A stretch of 35,349 nt of DNA from Planctomycetaceae bacterium (GTDB taxonomy: Bacteria > Planctomycetota > Planctomycetia > Planctomycetales > Planctomycetaceae). The DNA is taken from the NCBI GenBank assembly GCA_002726205.1, contig PBSL01000001.1:93389-128737 (forward strand), in the 5' to 3' direction. A program made the translations under genes and the position numbers. Below, piece after piece: positions 4,976-10,501 of this stretch (positions are counted from its first letter, which is position 1; each line of letters opens with the position of its first letter). Below the pieces are notes generated by a model. It was not told the DNA's origin and ran no database searches. It saw only the letters and a list, made by a program, of their open reading frames with translations.

Positions 4976-6262
4976 ATGCCTTCCGGTCAAGATTTCACGC
5001 CGACGAAACGCGGATCCACCGGCAAGAAGAACGCGAACTGTTCTTTTTGTCGAAAGAGTTATCGTGAGGTTGGCCCCCTCGTTGAGGGCCCCGACGATGT
5101 CTACATCTGTGGTGAGTGCATCGAACTCTGCCAGTCGATCCTCGACCAGGAACATCGCCGACGCGGCGACCCCCGCCGCCTCTTCACCGAGGTCCCCACG
5201 CCCCGCCAGATCGTTGAGCATCTCGAGCAGTACGTCATCGGCCAGGAGCATGCCAAGAAGACGCTCGCCGTCGCAGTCCACAATCACTACAAGCGGTTGC
5301 TACATCACGAGCAGTCCGACGACGACGTCGAACTCGAAAAATCCAACATCATGCTCATCGGCCCGACCGGGTGCGGTAAGACGCTGATGGCCCGAACGCT
5401 CGCACGATTTCTGCAGGTCCCCTTTGCCATAGGCGACGCGACGACCTTGACTGAAGCAGGTTATGTGGGCGAGGACGTCGAAAATCTCCTGCTCAAGCTC
5501 CTCCACGCAGCAGATTTCGATATCGAGGCCGCACAACGGGGCATTCTCTTCATCGACGAGATCGACAAGATCGGGAAGACCAGTAGCAACGTTTCGATCA
5601 CCCGGGATGTCTCCGGCGAAGGCGTCCAGCAGGCGCTGCTGAAAATGCTCGAAGGAACCGTGGCCAACGTTCCTCCGCAAGGAGGCCGCAAACACCCTGA
5701 GCAGCAATACATCCAGATCGACACGACAAACATCCTGTTCATCTGTGGCGGCACGTTTGTTGGTCTCGAAGATATCATCGCCAAACGACAGGGCACGCGA
5801 ATGATCGGGTTTGGCCAGCAGATCGAACAGGATGTGGCTGAACAGCAGCGCCGCGAGTTGCTCGGGGATGTCACCGTCGACGACATCCTCGAATTTGGTC
5901 TCATCCCGGAACTCGTCGGTCGCCTTCCGGTCCTCAGCAGCCTGCTTCCTCTCGGAGAGGAGGACCTGGTCCGCATCATGACCGAGCCGAAGAATTCCCT
6001 TGTACGCCAGTTCCAGAAGTTCTTCGAACTCGAGAATGCCGAATTGACGTTCGCCCCCGAATCCCTGCGCGAAATCGCACGCAGCGCAATGACCAAGGAC
6101 ACCGGAGCGCGCGGCCTGCGGAGTGTAATCGAGGCGGCGATGTTTGAGATTCTCTTCGAGTTGCCCGAGCAGGAAGACGGTCGCAAGTATGAACTGACGG
6201 CCGAGATGGTCCGTGGCGAGGAACACATGTTCCCCCAGCAGGATGATTCGGCGGCTGCCTGA
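4976..6262 (+). CDS. clpX: ATP-dependent Clp protease ATP-binding subunit ClpX
   Basis: A 428-residue AAA+ unfoldase of typical ClpX length. The N-terminal zinc-binding domain has Cys22-x2-Cys25 and Cys45-x2-Cys48. The Walker A motif GPTGCGKT is at 129-136, the pore-1 loop GYVG at 162-165, Walker B ILFIDE at 190-195, the RKH loop GGRKHPEQQ near 237, and the ClpP-docking IGF tripeptide (MIGFG) near 277. Sensor/arginine residues are in [11 protein letters not shown]. It therefore keeps everything needed to unfold substrates and pass them to ClpP, which is not in the window. ATG at 4976 is supported by the AGGA just upstream. A long antisense open frame over the gene is a codon-bias shadow. Confidence 0.97.
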
Positions 6263-6280
6263 GCCGAGCAGGGGCTGCGT

Positions 6281-6310
6281 TTGTGGACCCGCGGATCCAC
6301 CCGCTATCAT
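6281..6310 (+). promoter_or_regulatory. Candidate promoter with near-perfect 18-bp palindrome in the spacer, before the FHA gene
   Basis: TATCAT (6305-6310, five of six) is preceded after 18 bases by a weak TTGTGG (6281-6286). The spacer and part of the -35 are occupied by GTGGACCCGCGGATCCAC (6283-6300), an 18-bp palindrome with one mismatched pair. A dyad within a long spacer is the arrangement used by MerR-type regulators, but no regulator gene is adjacent. The FHA gene starts at 6356. Confidence 0.3.
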
Positions 6311-6355
6311 GGGTGCGCCCGGTTCTTCCACATTCCTACATCCAAACAACTCACC

Positions 6356-7309
6356 ATGGATGTCCGCCTCGAGGTCCTCCACGAACAGGCGCGGCACCGC
6401 GAGGTGTCACTTTATCGTGACACGCTGATCGGCCGTGGTCGCGATTGCCAATTGCGAATCCCCGTCGAGGAGGTCAGCCGACAACACTGCCGCCTGAGTT
6501 TCGACGGTGAGCGACTCCTGCTGCGAGATCTCAGCAGTTCCAACGGCACAACGCTCGAGGGAAAGCGGATTCCCGCCGATCGCGATTTGCTGGTTTCTGA
6601 TGGAGACACCATCACCGTCGGCCCAGTGTCTTTCGTCGTCCACCTCAACACTTCGCAGACCACTTCGCCACAATCCCCAACGAACATCCCACCCGTCAGT
6701 CTCGAGGACACGGCCGAATTCAACGTCATCCCTGAACTCGAAACCGACAACACCAATCTTGTCGCCGATGAGAACGACCCGGCATCCCCGGCGGACGCTG
6801 CCTCTCCGTCACCGCCCCCTGCGGAAATCCAACGGGATGTTCCCCTCGTCGACGAAGCCGGCCCCGACGACGAGGGAGACTCGATCGTCGACCTTCAATT
6901 GAGCGCGTCTCCTGACCACGAAACAGAACCTCCCGACTCGTCAGCTGATGAACCCGAGGATCCCATCGCCACCGATGGCGAAGACGCTGCGGATGTCGCC
7001 GAGGCGCCCCACAAGTCCCGTTCCTTGTTTGGACTGTTCCGCCGCGGCCAGCCGTCCGCGGACGAGGACGACACGATCGACGAGGATGAGCTGATTGAGG
7101 AAGTCGGCGAGGATCCCCCGGCAGAGGACTTGTCCCCAGATCCTGAAGTTCTTTCTTCCTCGGAAGAGAGTTCCGACGACCACGCCGCAGGACAAGATGA
7201 CGACGATCACGATTCGTTCGAATTCCATCAAACCAGCGACGAAACTGATGACAACGAGCCAGTCGACGACGACAACCTGTCGGATTTTCTTGGACAATTC
7301 TCCGAATAG
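6356..7309 (+). CDS. FHA-domain protein with long acidic C-terminal region
   Basis: A 317-residue protein. The N-terminal FHA domain (about 23-95) carries the conserved LIGRGRDCQL, SRQH (Ser41, His44) and SSNG (61-64) motifs that bind phosphothreonine peptides. The remaining 220 residues are low complexity, Asp/Glu/Ser/Pro-rich and presumably disordered, with one basic island, SRSLFGLFRRGQ, near residues 221-232. No catalytic domain or membrane segment is visible, so it probably acts as a phospho-dependent adaptor; the partner kinase is not in the window. The ATG at 6356 starts immediately at the FHA fold; an earlier frame start at 6281 would add unrelated residues and lies in the candidate promoter. 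The Nramp-like gene starts 15 bases downstream. Confidence 0.88.
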   Translation: MDVRLEVLHEQARHREVSLYRDTLIGRGRDCQLRIPVEEVSRQHCRLSFDGERLLLRDLSSSNGTTLEGKRIPADRDLLVSDGDTITVGPVSFVVHLNTSQTTSPQSPTNIPPVSLEDTAEFNVIPELETDNTNLVADENDPASPADAASPSPPPAEIQRDVPLVDEAGPDDEGDSIVDLQLSASPDHETEPPDSSADEPEDPIATDGEDAADVAEAPHKSRSLFGLFRRGQPSADEDDTIDEDELIEEVGEDPPAEDLSPDPEVLSSSEESSDDHAAGQDDDDHDSFEFHQTSDETDDNEPVDDDNLSDFLGQFSE

Positions 7310-7324
7310 CAGCGAGACGACTCA

Positions 7325-8641
7325 ATGAACAACCCGGTACCCACCGCCAAGAGCCCGTTGCCGGAGCTGCGATTGCGTCAATCCGGAAAATGGTACCGCC
7401 GCCTCGGTCCCGGTCTGATCACCGCCTGTGTCGTGATCGGTCCCGGCAGCATCACCACTAGCTCCCAGGTCGGATCGACTCACGGTTTTTCGTTGACCTG
7501 GGTCGTTCTGGTGGCGGTGGTCTTCATGCTGACCTTCATGCAATTGGGTGCCCGACTCGGTGCGGTTTCCGAGCAATCACCTGCCGACCTTATTACCGAA
7601 CGCATCGGCCGTTGGTTGGCCGCGTTGATCGGCATCGGCACCTTCTTCATTTCCGCTTCCTTCCAATTCGGCAACAACCTCGGTGTCGATGCCGCCTTCA
7701 AGGAACTCTCCAAGGACATCTTTTCCCTGGAAACCCAGGCCGTTGTCGCCCCCTGGCTCGATTACACGATTGTCGCCTTCAACGGGTTCGCGATTGCGTT
7801 CCTGGTGGCATTCAAAAACCTCTACCGGGCCCTCGAACGGCTCATGATGTGTTTCGTGGGCGTGATGCTGGCCTCTTTTGCTCTGAATCTCGGTTTTGCA
7901 TTGGCCAACATGACCATCCCGGCCGAGGCTGCTGCGCCGGCCGCGGAAGAACCGTTGCTTGATTTTTCCCTGCTGGGGCTGGTGGGCACCACATTTGTCA
8001 TCACCGCCGCCTATTACCAGTGCTACCTGGTTCAACAGAAGGGCTGGACCAAAGACGATGTTGCAGACGGCATGCGAGATGCTCGTGTCGGTTCTGTACT
8101 AATGGCGTTGATCACCCTGATGATCATGTGTACGGCCGCCGCAGTCCTCCAGGGCAAGCAGTTGCAGAATTACACGGAGGTCTCTTCTCAACTCGCCCCA
8201 CTCTTTGGCGCATGGGGTCGTCCACTCTTTTGCATCGGCCTGTTTGCCGCTGCCTACTCCTCGTTCCTGATCAATTCGATGATCGGTGGTTTTATTCTCG
8301 CCGACGGGCTGGGCCTGGGCAGTCGCCCGGAACAACCGGCACCGCGGATCATGACCATCGCCGTTCTCCTGATTGGCATGGCTGTCGCCCTGTTTGTCAT
8401 CAAAGCCGGCTTCAATGCGGTGCCGGCCGTAGTCGCTGCCCAGGCCGTAACCGTTCTGGCTGCCCCGTTGACTGCCGGCGCTTTGATCTGGATGACCAAT
8501 CGGAAAGACATCATGGGAGAAGATACAAACCGCCCCGGCACGAACATTTTGGCCTGCTGCGGCCTTGTATTGCTGCTTGCCATGGCTCTCTACACGGCCG
8601 TCGCCAAGGTTTGGCCACGCCTCTCCGAATGGATCGCTTGA
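7325..8641 (+). CDS. Nramp-family divalent-metal transporter homologue, divergent metal site
   Basis: A 438-residue polytopic protein with about 11 membrane helices and the Nramp start LRQSGKWYRRLGPGLITACV. In canonical Nramp proteins helix 1 has the DPGN motif and helix 6 an M-P-H motif that bind Mn2+/Fe2+. Here helix 1 reads VVIGPGSITTSSQVGS (Asp to Gly, Asn to Ser) and helix 6 reads VITAAYYQCYLVQQ with no Met-Pro-His. The LeuT-like fold is probably kept, but the substrate is likely not a classical transition metal; Nramp-related Mg2+ transporters are known to have altered sites, and a changed function is possible. It follows the FHA gene by 15 bases and probably shares its transcript. Confidence 0.88.
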   Translation: MNNPVPTAKSPLPELRLRQSGKWYRRLGPGLITACVVIGPGSITTSSQVGSTHGFSLTWVVLVAVVFMLTFMQLGARLGAVSEQSPADLITERIGRWLAALIGIGTFFISASFQFGNNLGVDAAFKELSKDIFSLETQAVVAPWLDYTIVAFNGFAIAFLVAFKNLYRALERLMMCFVGVMLASFALNLGFALANMTIPAEAAAPAAEEPLLDFSLLGLVGTTFVITAAYYQCYLVQQKGWTKDDVADGMRDARVGSVLMALITLMIMCTAAAVLQGKQLQNYTEVSSQLAPLFGAWGRPLFCIGLFAAAYSSFLINSMIGGFILADGLGLGSRPEQPAPRIMTIAVLLIGMAVALFVIKAGFNAVPAVVAAQAVTVLAAPLTAGALIWMTNRKDIMGEDTNRPGTNILACCGLVLLLAMALYTAVAKVWPRLSEWIA

Positions 8642-8677: not shown

Positions 8678-9079
8678 GTGACCGATTCGTCGTCAAATGA
8701 ACTACTCCAGCTCAGCCGCCAACTCCTCGATGCCATCGACGCGCGTGACTTGCCGGCGTATGAGGAACTCTGCGATCCAAGCCTGACGGCCTTTGAACCC
8801 GAGGCTAGCGGCCACCTCGTCGAGGGTATGGCGTTTCACGAATTTTATCTCTCAGACGGCCCCGACGAGTTCACGAGGCAATCCACCATCAGTACACCTC
8901 ATGTGCGACGCCTCGGAGAGGTAGCCATCGTCAGCTATGTACGACTCCTTCAGACGACAGACGGCCAGGGAGTTCACGCGACCGATGCCATGGAAGAAAC
9001 GCGGGTCTGGCACCACCTCGACGGGCGTTGGCAGCACGTTCACTTTCACCGATCCCCGGCCGGACTCACTTCGCCCTAG
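8678..9079 (+). CDS. Stand-alone CaMKII association (hub) domain-like protein
   Basis: A 133-residue single-domain protein. Its core matches, from memory, the association domain that makes the 12-14-subunit hub of animal Ca2+/calmodulin-dependent kinase II: DPSLTAFEPEASGHLVEGMA (residues 33-52) with FHEFYL following, then PHVRRLGEVAIVSYVRLLQ, DGQG, and EETRVWHHLDGRWQHVHFH (106-124). The fold belongs to the SnoaL/NTF2-like cone superfamily. There is no kinase domain, so this would be a free hub or small-ligand-binding protein. The start is GTG at 8678, with AAGGA about 10 bases upstream. It lies 36 bases after the Nramp-like gene and is probably in the same operon. The family assignment is strong; the biological role is unknown. 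Confidence 0.88.
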   Translation: MTDSSSNELLQLSRQLLDAIDARDLPAYEELCDPSLTAFEPEASGHLVEGMAFHEFYLSDGPDEFTRQSTISTPHVRRLGEVAIVSYVRLLQTTDGQGVHATDAMEETRVWHHLDGRWQHVHFHRSPAGLTSP

Positions 9080-9160
9080 ACCACTCGACCGCCCGAGCGT
9101 CCTCGTCAGACATTTTCTCGGGAATCCGATTCCTCGGCTTTCGCCGGCGTCGATGACGGT

Positions 9161-9166
9161 TAGACT
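9161..9166 (+). promoter_or_regulatory. Possible -10 box directly before the DUF1598 gene
   Basis: TAGACT matches the -10 consensus at four of six positions and ends nine bases before the ATG at 9176. No good -35 box is visible at 16-18 bases. If used, transcription would start within a few bases of the ATG. Confidence 0.2.
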
Positions 9167-9175
9167 GACATCAGG

Positions 9176-10501
9176 ATGTGTTCGAACAACACCACGTGTC
9201 TTGCCCTGTTGACGGCCAGCTTCTGCTGCCTCTTCCCCGACAACGCCTTGTCTCAGGTTGGCGGAATCGAAGTCGATTCGCGGGGTGTCCTTCGGCATGC
9301 CACCGTCTCGGCAGCCGAACGTCGACTCTCGCGTCCTGCAAAGTCTCTCGCGAGGCCGTCGACCACACGCGCACTCTCATTGAAACGGCTCGAACAGGCC
9401 ATCTCTGTCCACGTCAAACGCGGCGAGTCGTTGCCCCCGGAACTGAGATTTCTCGGTGGTCTACAGCGGATTGACCAAGTGCTCTTGTATCCCGAACTCG
9501 AGGATGCCGTGCTCGTCGGTCCCGCCGGTGGTTGGAAGCGCCTGCCATCTGGAGAATTTGTCGGTACCGACAGCCACAGGCCCCTCCTGGAACTTGACGA
9601 CCTCGCCTTGGCACTTCGTTTTGTGCACTCGCCATCGACACAGGATGGTTTCATTGGCTGCTCGATCGACCCCACCCTCTCCGGACTGCAACGGTATGCG
9701 AAGTACATGAAGGGACTTTCCGGACGCCTGGACGCGTCCCGGATCCGTACATTGATTGCTGGCATGCAGCACAGCATCGGCCACCAACAGGTGCGAGTCT
9801 TTGGTGTCCCCGCAGACACCCGATTCGCCTGGAAGCTGGTTGCAGCCGACTACCGACTCAAACGCATCGCCATGGGTTTCGACAACGTCCCCGTCAAGGG
9901 GTTTACCAGTTACATGGACTTGCTCTCCCGTGCCAACCGGGCTGCCACCAGGACACAGCACCGTTTCTGGTTCGTCGCAACTTACGATGATCTCACGCGA
10001 GCACCTGATGGACTGGCCTGGCAATTTACCGGCCCCGGGCTCGCGGTTCGCACTGCCGCGCGATCTGGCGGCAAGGATAAGGAAAAGGCCACACCGATTG
10101 CCCGTCGCATGGCATCGACCCTGACCGAAGCACTTCCGGAACTCTCCCGACTGACACCTGTCTTTTTCGAACTGCAGAACCTCGTTCGCCTGTCAGTCGC
10201 TGCCGAGATCCTGCTCAACGCTCCGATCGGCGACACCACGGGGCGTTGGAGTTCACGTGTTCTGGTTGATCCGGATCGCTACCGGCCCGCCCGCCGGACC
10301 ACGCCAAGACAGGTGCCTTCACTGGGCGCGGTTCGCAAGGCCCGGGGACGAAACTGGATCTTCAGCATCAGCGGTGGTGTGCAGATCGAACCCGCGCCGG
10401 TTGGGAACCCGAAGTTCGGCACGATCGATCGACGTTTGCCTGCAAGACGCGCCGCGTCGCGATCAAGAATAGCGACGACCGCTCACTGGTGGTGGGATTA
10501 A
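9176..10501 (+). CDS. Exported DUF1598-type protein
   Basis: A 441-residue protein. The N-terminus (CLALLTASFCCLFPDNALSQ) looks like a signal peptide. The body carries blocks I associate with DUF1598, a family I know from planctomycetes: LPPELRFLGGLQRIDQVLLY, ELEDAVLVGPAGGW, GCSIDPT, FGVPADTRFAWKLVAADYRL and KRIAMGF, and near the C-terminus WIFSISGGVQI. The function of the family is not known. The last 50 residues are Arg-rich. The ATG at 9176 lies about ten bases after a TAGACT box (9161-9166), so the message may be almost leaderless. Its TAA stop shares TTAA with the convergent lysC stop. Confidence 0.8.
   Translation: MCSNNTTCLALLTASFCCLFPDNALSQVGGIEVDSRGVLRHATVSAAERRLSRPAKSLARPSTTRALSLKRLEQAISVHVKRGESLPPELRFLGGLQRIDQVLLYPELEDAVLVGPAGGWKRLPSGEFVGTDSHRPLLELDDLALALRFVHSPSTQDGFIGCSIDPTLSGLQRYAKYMKGLSGRLDASRIRTLIAGMQHSIGHQQVRVFGVPADTRFAWKLVAADYRLKRIAMGFDNVPVKGFTSYMDLLSRANRAATRTQHRFWFVATYDDLTRAPDGLAWQFTGPGLAVRTAARSGGKDKEKATPIARRMASTLTEALPELSRLTPVFFELQNLVRLSVAAEILLNAPIGDTTGRWSSRVLVDPDRYRPARRTTPRQVPSLGAVRKARGRNWIFSISGGVQIEPAPVGNPKFGTIDRRLPARRAASRSRIATTAHWWWD

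Follow-up and report, generated by a model that had tools for sequence, protein, structure and literature searches.

The window, by which we mean the whole stretch of 35,349 nucleotides analyzed here, carries a run of genes on the forward strand around a small open reading frame (ORF) at positions 8678 to 9079. The run begins with clpX (4976 to 6262), named from the Pfam matches of its product to the zinc finger and AAA domains and a frequent upstream flank of related loci in other genomes. It continues with a gene for an FHA-domain protein (6356 to 7309, with ATG at 6356), identified by its N-terminal FHA domain (PF00498, 62.5 bits) and its position, and a gene for an Nramp-like transporter (7325 to 8641; PF01566, 189.4 bits), followed by the small ORF. 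After a gap (9080 to 9175), it ends with a gene for a DUF1598 protein (9176 to 10501; PF07643, 87.7 bits), which also lies downstream on the same strand in two other genera, g60 and g76 (g, L, and f numbers denote our genera, loci, and families). The FHA protein has a long acidic linker, a basic/aromatic patch, KSRSLFGLFRR, and the C-terminal tail DDNLSDFLGQFSE (7268 to 7306), a motif of the D-x-L-x-x-F-L type recognized by eye in the translations. An earlier note on this DNA had placed the Nramp and FHA genes next to the ORF; both are indeed present but upstream of it, the order being FHA-Nramp-hub, and the gene downstream is that for DUF1598.

The ORF at 8678 to 9079 opens with GTG, about 10 nucleotides 3' of an AAGGA seen by eye that is plausibly its ribosome-binding site, and encodes a protein of 133 amino acids. 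As judged by profile matches and a predicted structure, this protein is a kinase-free, free-standing CaMKII-type hub (association) domain. CaMKII_AD (PF08332) matches residues 7 to 129 with 129.6 bits (E value of 1e-37; cutoff, 22.1), the single PF08332 match in the host genome, and all motifs that led the earlier note to propose such a domain (FEPEASGHLVEGMAFHEFY, DGQG, and EETRVWHHLDGRWQHVHFH) are encoded by the ORF. Only the hub and related NTF2-like Pfam models match the protein, with neither a kinase domain nor a calmodulin-binding segment, in keeping with the claim that no kinase is present. Could the likeness to CaMKII be superficial and the protein a generic member of the DUF4440/SnoaL-like families? 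DUF4440 (PF14534, 51 bits) and SnoaL_3 (PF13474, 33 bits) do exceed their own cutoffs, but CaMKII_AD is ahead of DUF4440 by ~79 bits, and ring and pocket residues are kept in the protein. A phmmer search of the PDB returned 26 distinct sequences at an E value of ≤1, of which 19, all those below 1e-20, are CaMKII-type hubs (E values of 2.8e-36 to 6e-22), and the remaining 7 are unrelated (E values of ≥0.056). Given these profile scores, PDB matches, and conserved residues, we consider the generic identity ruled out for practical purposes, with hardly any credence left to it. An AlphaFold2 model built from 18 aligned hubs (mean pLDDT, 89.2; pTM, 0.84) gave 312 PDB matches in Foldseek at an E value of ≤0.001, and the best 50 of the 312, each a CaMKII-type hub from an animal or from Chlamydomonas, have TM scores by query length of 0.81 to 0.91. 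The profile comparison and the structure prediction, both proposed in the earlier note, thus bear out its assignment. The identity to human CaMKII-delta is 49%.

An alignment was made of 87 distinct hubs from bacteria and two from humans, together with four weak PF08332 paralogues of the phylum. Residue numbers of CaMKII-alpha were placed on the alignment by hand from the alpha sequence. This numbering agrees with the beta row, which has Leu at 434 and Cys at 469, as PMC11199487 and PMC12148480 give for beta. According to these papers, F394 and Q436 are among the residues on which lateral contacts in the CaMKII ring depend, a histidine network makes the vertical contact (PMC11199487), and the core of the pocket that binds GHB consists of H395, R433, R453, and R469 (PMC12148480). 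The corresponding residues of the window hub are F53 (F394, lateral) and H54 (H395, pocket) at 8834 to 8839, R89 (R433, pocket) to Q92 (Q436, lateral) at 8942 to 8953, R109 (R453, pocket) at 9002 to 9004, and H122 (H466, vertical), H124 (H468, vertical), and R125 (R469, pocket) at 9041 to 9052. None of the eight differs in any of the 87 bacterial hubs, and together they make up half of the 16 positions that never vary among them. Five of the six residues of the vertical network (T378, H420, T452, H466, H468, and S470) are kept in the window hub, the sixth, H420, being replaced by R77; Arg occupies this position in 77 of the 87 bacterial hubs. Hydrophobic contact positions are partly variable among them, with L415 mostly Ala or Ser, and position 464 is His in all 87 and Asn in both human rows; I464H is among the six changes of a human alpha hub mutant in the PDB, found among the Foldseek matches. 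None of the four weak paralogues has the pocket residues or the F394/Q436 pair; T452, H468, and S470 are common to them too and do not discriminate hubs. As read from the alignment, ring contacts and pocket set the hubs apart from the weak paralogues and appear to be under equal constraint. By analogy with its Pirellula homologue, for which such an assembly is reported, the window hub probably assembles into a two-tier ring of at least 12 subunits.

Hubs are widespread in the family of the window (f1), with a PF08332 match at an E value of 0.001 in 113 of 170 genomes and a gap separating the scores. Strong hubs, scoring >90 bits, occur in 100 f1 genomes of 35 genera, one in each. A phylum-wide draw of 294 genomes contained 15 with a match at an E value of ≤1e-12, the genome of the window included, and 13 of these exceed 120 bits; two of the matching genomes belong to family f36 (L184 and L185). 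Among 17 hub relatives in a scan of genome_contigs, 16 are titled planctomycete metagenome-assembled genomes (MAGs) and one "uncultured bacterium." No relatives were found in viral_contigs or in 72,556 plasmid records, which argues against a hub carried by viruses or plasmids.

To describe the neighborhood, ORFs were called and clustered in 60 hub regions extending at most 7 kb to each side, 57 from f1 and 3 from other families of the class, covering 38 genera. The regions were chosen by hand among the strong hubs, with at least one for each genus found, several in some, and some ending at a contig edge. FHA and receiver-like (REC) profiles were built from the first clusters, so that very diverged copies may escape them, and the neighbor counts are raw counts of loci and genera, uncorrected for kinship. 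A gene with an N-terminal FHA domain lies upstream of the hub on the same strand in 19 of the 60 loci and 11 of the 38 genera, and the FHA protein of the window is a relative of these. The distance to the hub match is 31 to 228 bases in 16 of the 19 loci and 1.4 to 1.6 kb, holding an Nramp gene, in the other 3. The pairing recurs in 5 of 12 further hub regions of f1 (L198 to L202). In 7 of the 19 loci, from 4 genera (g9, g30, g65, and g75), clpX is missing from the flank examined, which is only 1.2 kb at L067 and short in g65; the FHA-hub pair therefore seems to survive relocation. The D-x-L-x-x-F-L type tail, identified by eye, is found in 15 of the 19 hub-neighboring FHA proteins; its occurrence also in genomes without a hub and its lack in g58, which has the full gene order, weaken the idea that it serves as a dock for the hub.

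The earlier note had missed a second neighbor, a receiver-like gene encoding a protein of ~124 amino acids, which follows many hubs and is absent from the genome of the window. Within 1.2 kb downstream of the hub and on the same strand, it is found for 50 of the 100 strong hubs in 14 of the 35 genera, 47 of the 50 lying within 270 bases, as measured between profile matches rather than start and stop codons; in g67, a PanD-like gene stands between the two. Of the other 50 strong-hub genomes, 31 carry REC at a different place or on a separate contig. A strong match is lacking in the remaining 19, and in 14 of these, including that of the window, there is no match at all. The gene is not tied to hubs, with matches in 143 of 170 f1 genomes (133 at an E value of ≤1e-12), hub present or not. 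The receiver assignment of its product is a remote one: among 8 members, 6 match PF00072 below the cutoff (best, 23.6 versus 30.2 bits), 2 do not match, and none passes. Against the PDB, the profile of the REC-like protein retrieves chains of the two-component receiver type, 25 at an E value of 0.1, the best being 3luf (1.9e-5). Like a receiver domain, the protein has an invariant Asp at the expected phospho-acceptor place, whereas the switch Thr and Lys seem changed, both as seen by eye. Single-sequence structure prediction was uninformative (pLDDT, 36).

The full FHA-hub-REC order is found in g2, g21, g33, g58, g68, g76, and part of g34. FHA is absent upstream in 41 of the 60 hub loci and REC is not near 50 of the 100 strong hubs; neither stands beside the hub in 20 of the 38 sampled genera; one of these is g34, other species of which show the full order. 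No FHA or REC neighbor was seen for hubs of other families (L092 to L094, and L184 and L185 of f36 in 8-kb regions). At three loci of g26 and g67 (L044, L070, and L102), the hub is flanked on one side by a polyprenyl-synthase-like gene and on the other by one resembling PanD (aspartate decarboxylase), both named by eye. A crude kinase-loop motif was met in 8 of 777 called ORFs around the 60 hubs, none directly adjoining the hub, so that no kinase was found directly beside a hub by this motif.

What of the Nramp-like gene, which the earlier note had included in the unit? Among 77 hub loci, in which a few genomes occur twice, it lies between FHA and hub in 3, namely, L090 and L091 of g76 and L103, the window; at L044, a distant Nramp gene is on the other strand, 5 kb away. 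The FHA-hub part of the order suggested for a conservation check thus recurs across genera, but the transporter was seen between the two only in the genus of the window and g76, so that a role as partner is not supported. The hubs of g76 are nearest to the window hub among those compared (65% and 61% identity), and their order, clpX-FHA-Nramp-hub-REC-DUF1598, is identical to that of the window apart from REC, whose place in g76 corresponds to the gap at 9080 to 9175. A profile search found no match to the REC-like gene anywhere in the genome of the window, a 96% complete assembly. These orders are most simply read as an insertion of Nramp in an ancestor shared with g76, with later loss of REC in the genome of the window.

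The FHA-REC pairing also occurs without a hub. We chose 40 f1 genomes lacking a strong hub and examined the region downstream of clpX, which was found in 39 of them. For three of the 39 (L104, L116, and L141), this region was shorter than 0.9 kb. In 9 of the 39, clpX is succeeded by a codirectional FHA gene, and in 6 of the 9 (L106, L108, L109, L123, L137, and L138), REC comes after FHA with no hub between. L143 and L154 each hold a further FHA-REC pair, apart from clpX, bringing the abutting pairs to 8 genomes without a strong hub, from 5 genera. FHA and REC persist without the hub and therefore do not need it. Of 40 regions examined around REC genes that are not near a hub, two of them with less than 0.4 kb upstream, a single one showed an FHA gene abutting REC. 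We write the recurring unit as FHA-(hub)-REC, the hub being dispensable to the order; in the family of the window, the unit is commonly found beside clpX.

How might a kinase-free ring serve such a unit? We propose, with about even confidence, that the multivalent ring serves an FHA/REC signaling module, and we infer that the hub and the FHA protein physically work together. The hub ring would be a multivalent platform that supplies valency, gathering noncovalently the FHA protein as reader of phosphothreonine and, where present, the atypical receiver. The FHA domain would read phosphothreonine put on proteins by Hanks-type kinases of the cell, presumably some of those behind the 27 Pkinase matches; with these and 16 FHA matches in the host genome (4.86 Mb), such targets are plausible. 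Weak one-to-one recognition could in this way become strong many-to-many binding via the ring, with the atypical receiver, where kept, acting as a second client or a regulator and a small carboxylate or acidic peptide tuning the arginine-lined pocket. In the genome of the window, where the receiver would have been lost and the Nramp-like gene lies between FHA and hub, the FHA-hub half alone would be left.

Two other explanations of the data deserve consideration. The ring might be of the ketosteroid-isomerase/SnoaL type and act as an enzyme or bind a ligand. Its invariant His and three Arg would then form an active or binding site for a small carboxylate, with ring assembly being no more than architecture and the neighbors at most regulatory. 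The identity of the pocket in 87 of 87 hubs, though there is no kinase to hold, speaks for such a function, as does the correspondence of the CaMKII cavity, with three conserved arginines inside, to the active site of related enzymes (PMC4859805). Hubs without FHA or REC neighbors are common, and at L044, L102, and L070 (g26 and g67) the genes forming a run with the hub look, by eye, like those for a terpene cyclase, a polyprenyl synthase, and PanD. However, invariance is no less strict at F394 and Q436 than in the pocket, and both neighbors with a fixed position are signaling-type domains rather than members of one metabolic pathway, so that we regard an enzyme or ligand-binding protein of this kind as somewhat unlikely. 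Less probable still, in our estimate, is that the FHA-hub-REC order is a slowly decaying relic of one ancestral locus beside clpX, with the hub functionally unlinked. As in inherited synteny, clpX, FHA, hub, and REC recur together with a convergent aspartokinase-like gene (named by eye), and FHA and REC are each often away from the hub. Against mere descent, FHA-hub pairs are found with no clpX in the flank examined in g9, g30, g65 (where little flank was available), and g75, and hub-REC pairs have other flanks in g60, g62, g63, and g67, in the last with the PanD-like gene between; moreover, the genes are codirectional, and their gaps are mostly short. On the reading that we prefer, a ring serving FHA and REC, the recurring cluster hints at what hub rings may do without a kinase.

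The hub of the Pirellulaceae MAG PLA7 (L003, positions 6019 to 6390) shares 60% identity with human delta, whose median identity to 73 bacterial hubs is 47%, compared with a median of 52% between the window hub and the others. In an unrooted tree, the human delta and beta hubs join L003 with an ultrafast bootstrap value of 91; the data set has only two human rows and lacks an outgroup, and the deep nodes are weakly supported. This grouping is compatible with a transfer between bacteria and the animal line, whichever way it went, or with ancient common ancestry, and is silent on direction. That the pocket is conserved without exception in hubs lacking a kinase suggests that the fold has bound ligands since early on and that this ability is no by-product of the isoform found in brain. 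A broader scenario, which we put forward tentatively and consider rather unlikely as a whole, is that these rings are multivalent phospho-signaling scaffolds for FHA readers and atypical receivers, with an Arg/His pocket gated by carboxylates. Scaffold and pocket would then have existed without a kinase, and the ring would have been acquired or shared by animals and later fused to a kinase. If so, the pocket to which GHB binds in the CaMKII of the brain would be a remnant of an earlier function in sensing.

Kinase-less hub genes are said to occur in some green plants and bacteria. The free-standing hub of Pirellula sp. SH-Sr6A is reported to be a 14-mer (McSpadden 2019, as cited in PMC9120016). 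Searches of the open-licence literature, in the portions accessible, returned no report on the gene neighborhood or on an FHA or receiver partner of the algal or bacterial free-standing hubs and no answer as to the role of a kinase-less CaMKII hub. The earlier note had called a hub paired with an FHA protein unusual for a bacterium; the pairing recurs across genera, but the kinase-less bacterial hub as such was already known (PMC9120016). Compared with the hubs of animal CaMKII (human alpha, beta, gamma, and delta), the window hub shares the fold, F394/Q436, H466/H468, and the pocket residues H395, R433, R453, and R469. It differs in the lack of a kinase, regulatory segment, or linker, in Arg for H420 and His at 464, and in a pocket loop (residues 58 to 68) that contains no Trp and therefore has no equivalent of W403. 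A kinase-less, single-domain organization is common to the window hub and those of Chlamydomonas (6of9) and Pirellula, the latter, like the window, from a planctomycete. With a free-standing planctomycete hub already on record as the Pirellula 14-mer (PMC9120016), what is new here is the gene neighborhood: the FHA-hub-REC unit offers a concrete list of partners for a kinase-less hub, in a family that includes closed genomes.
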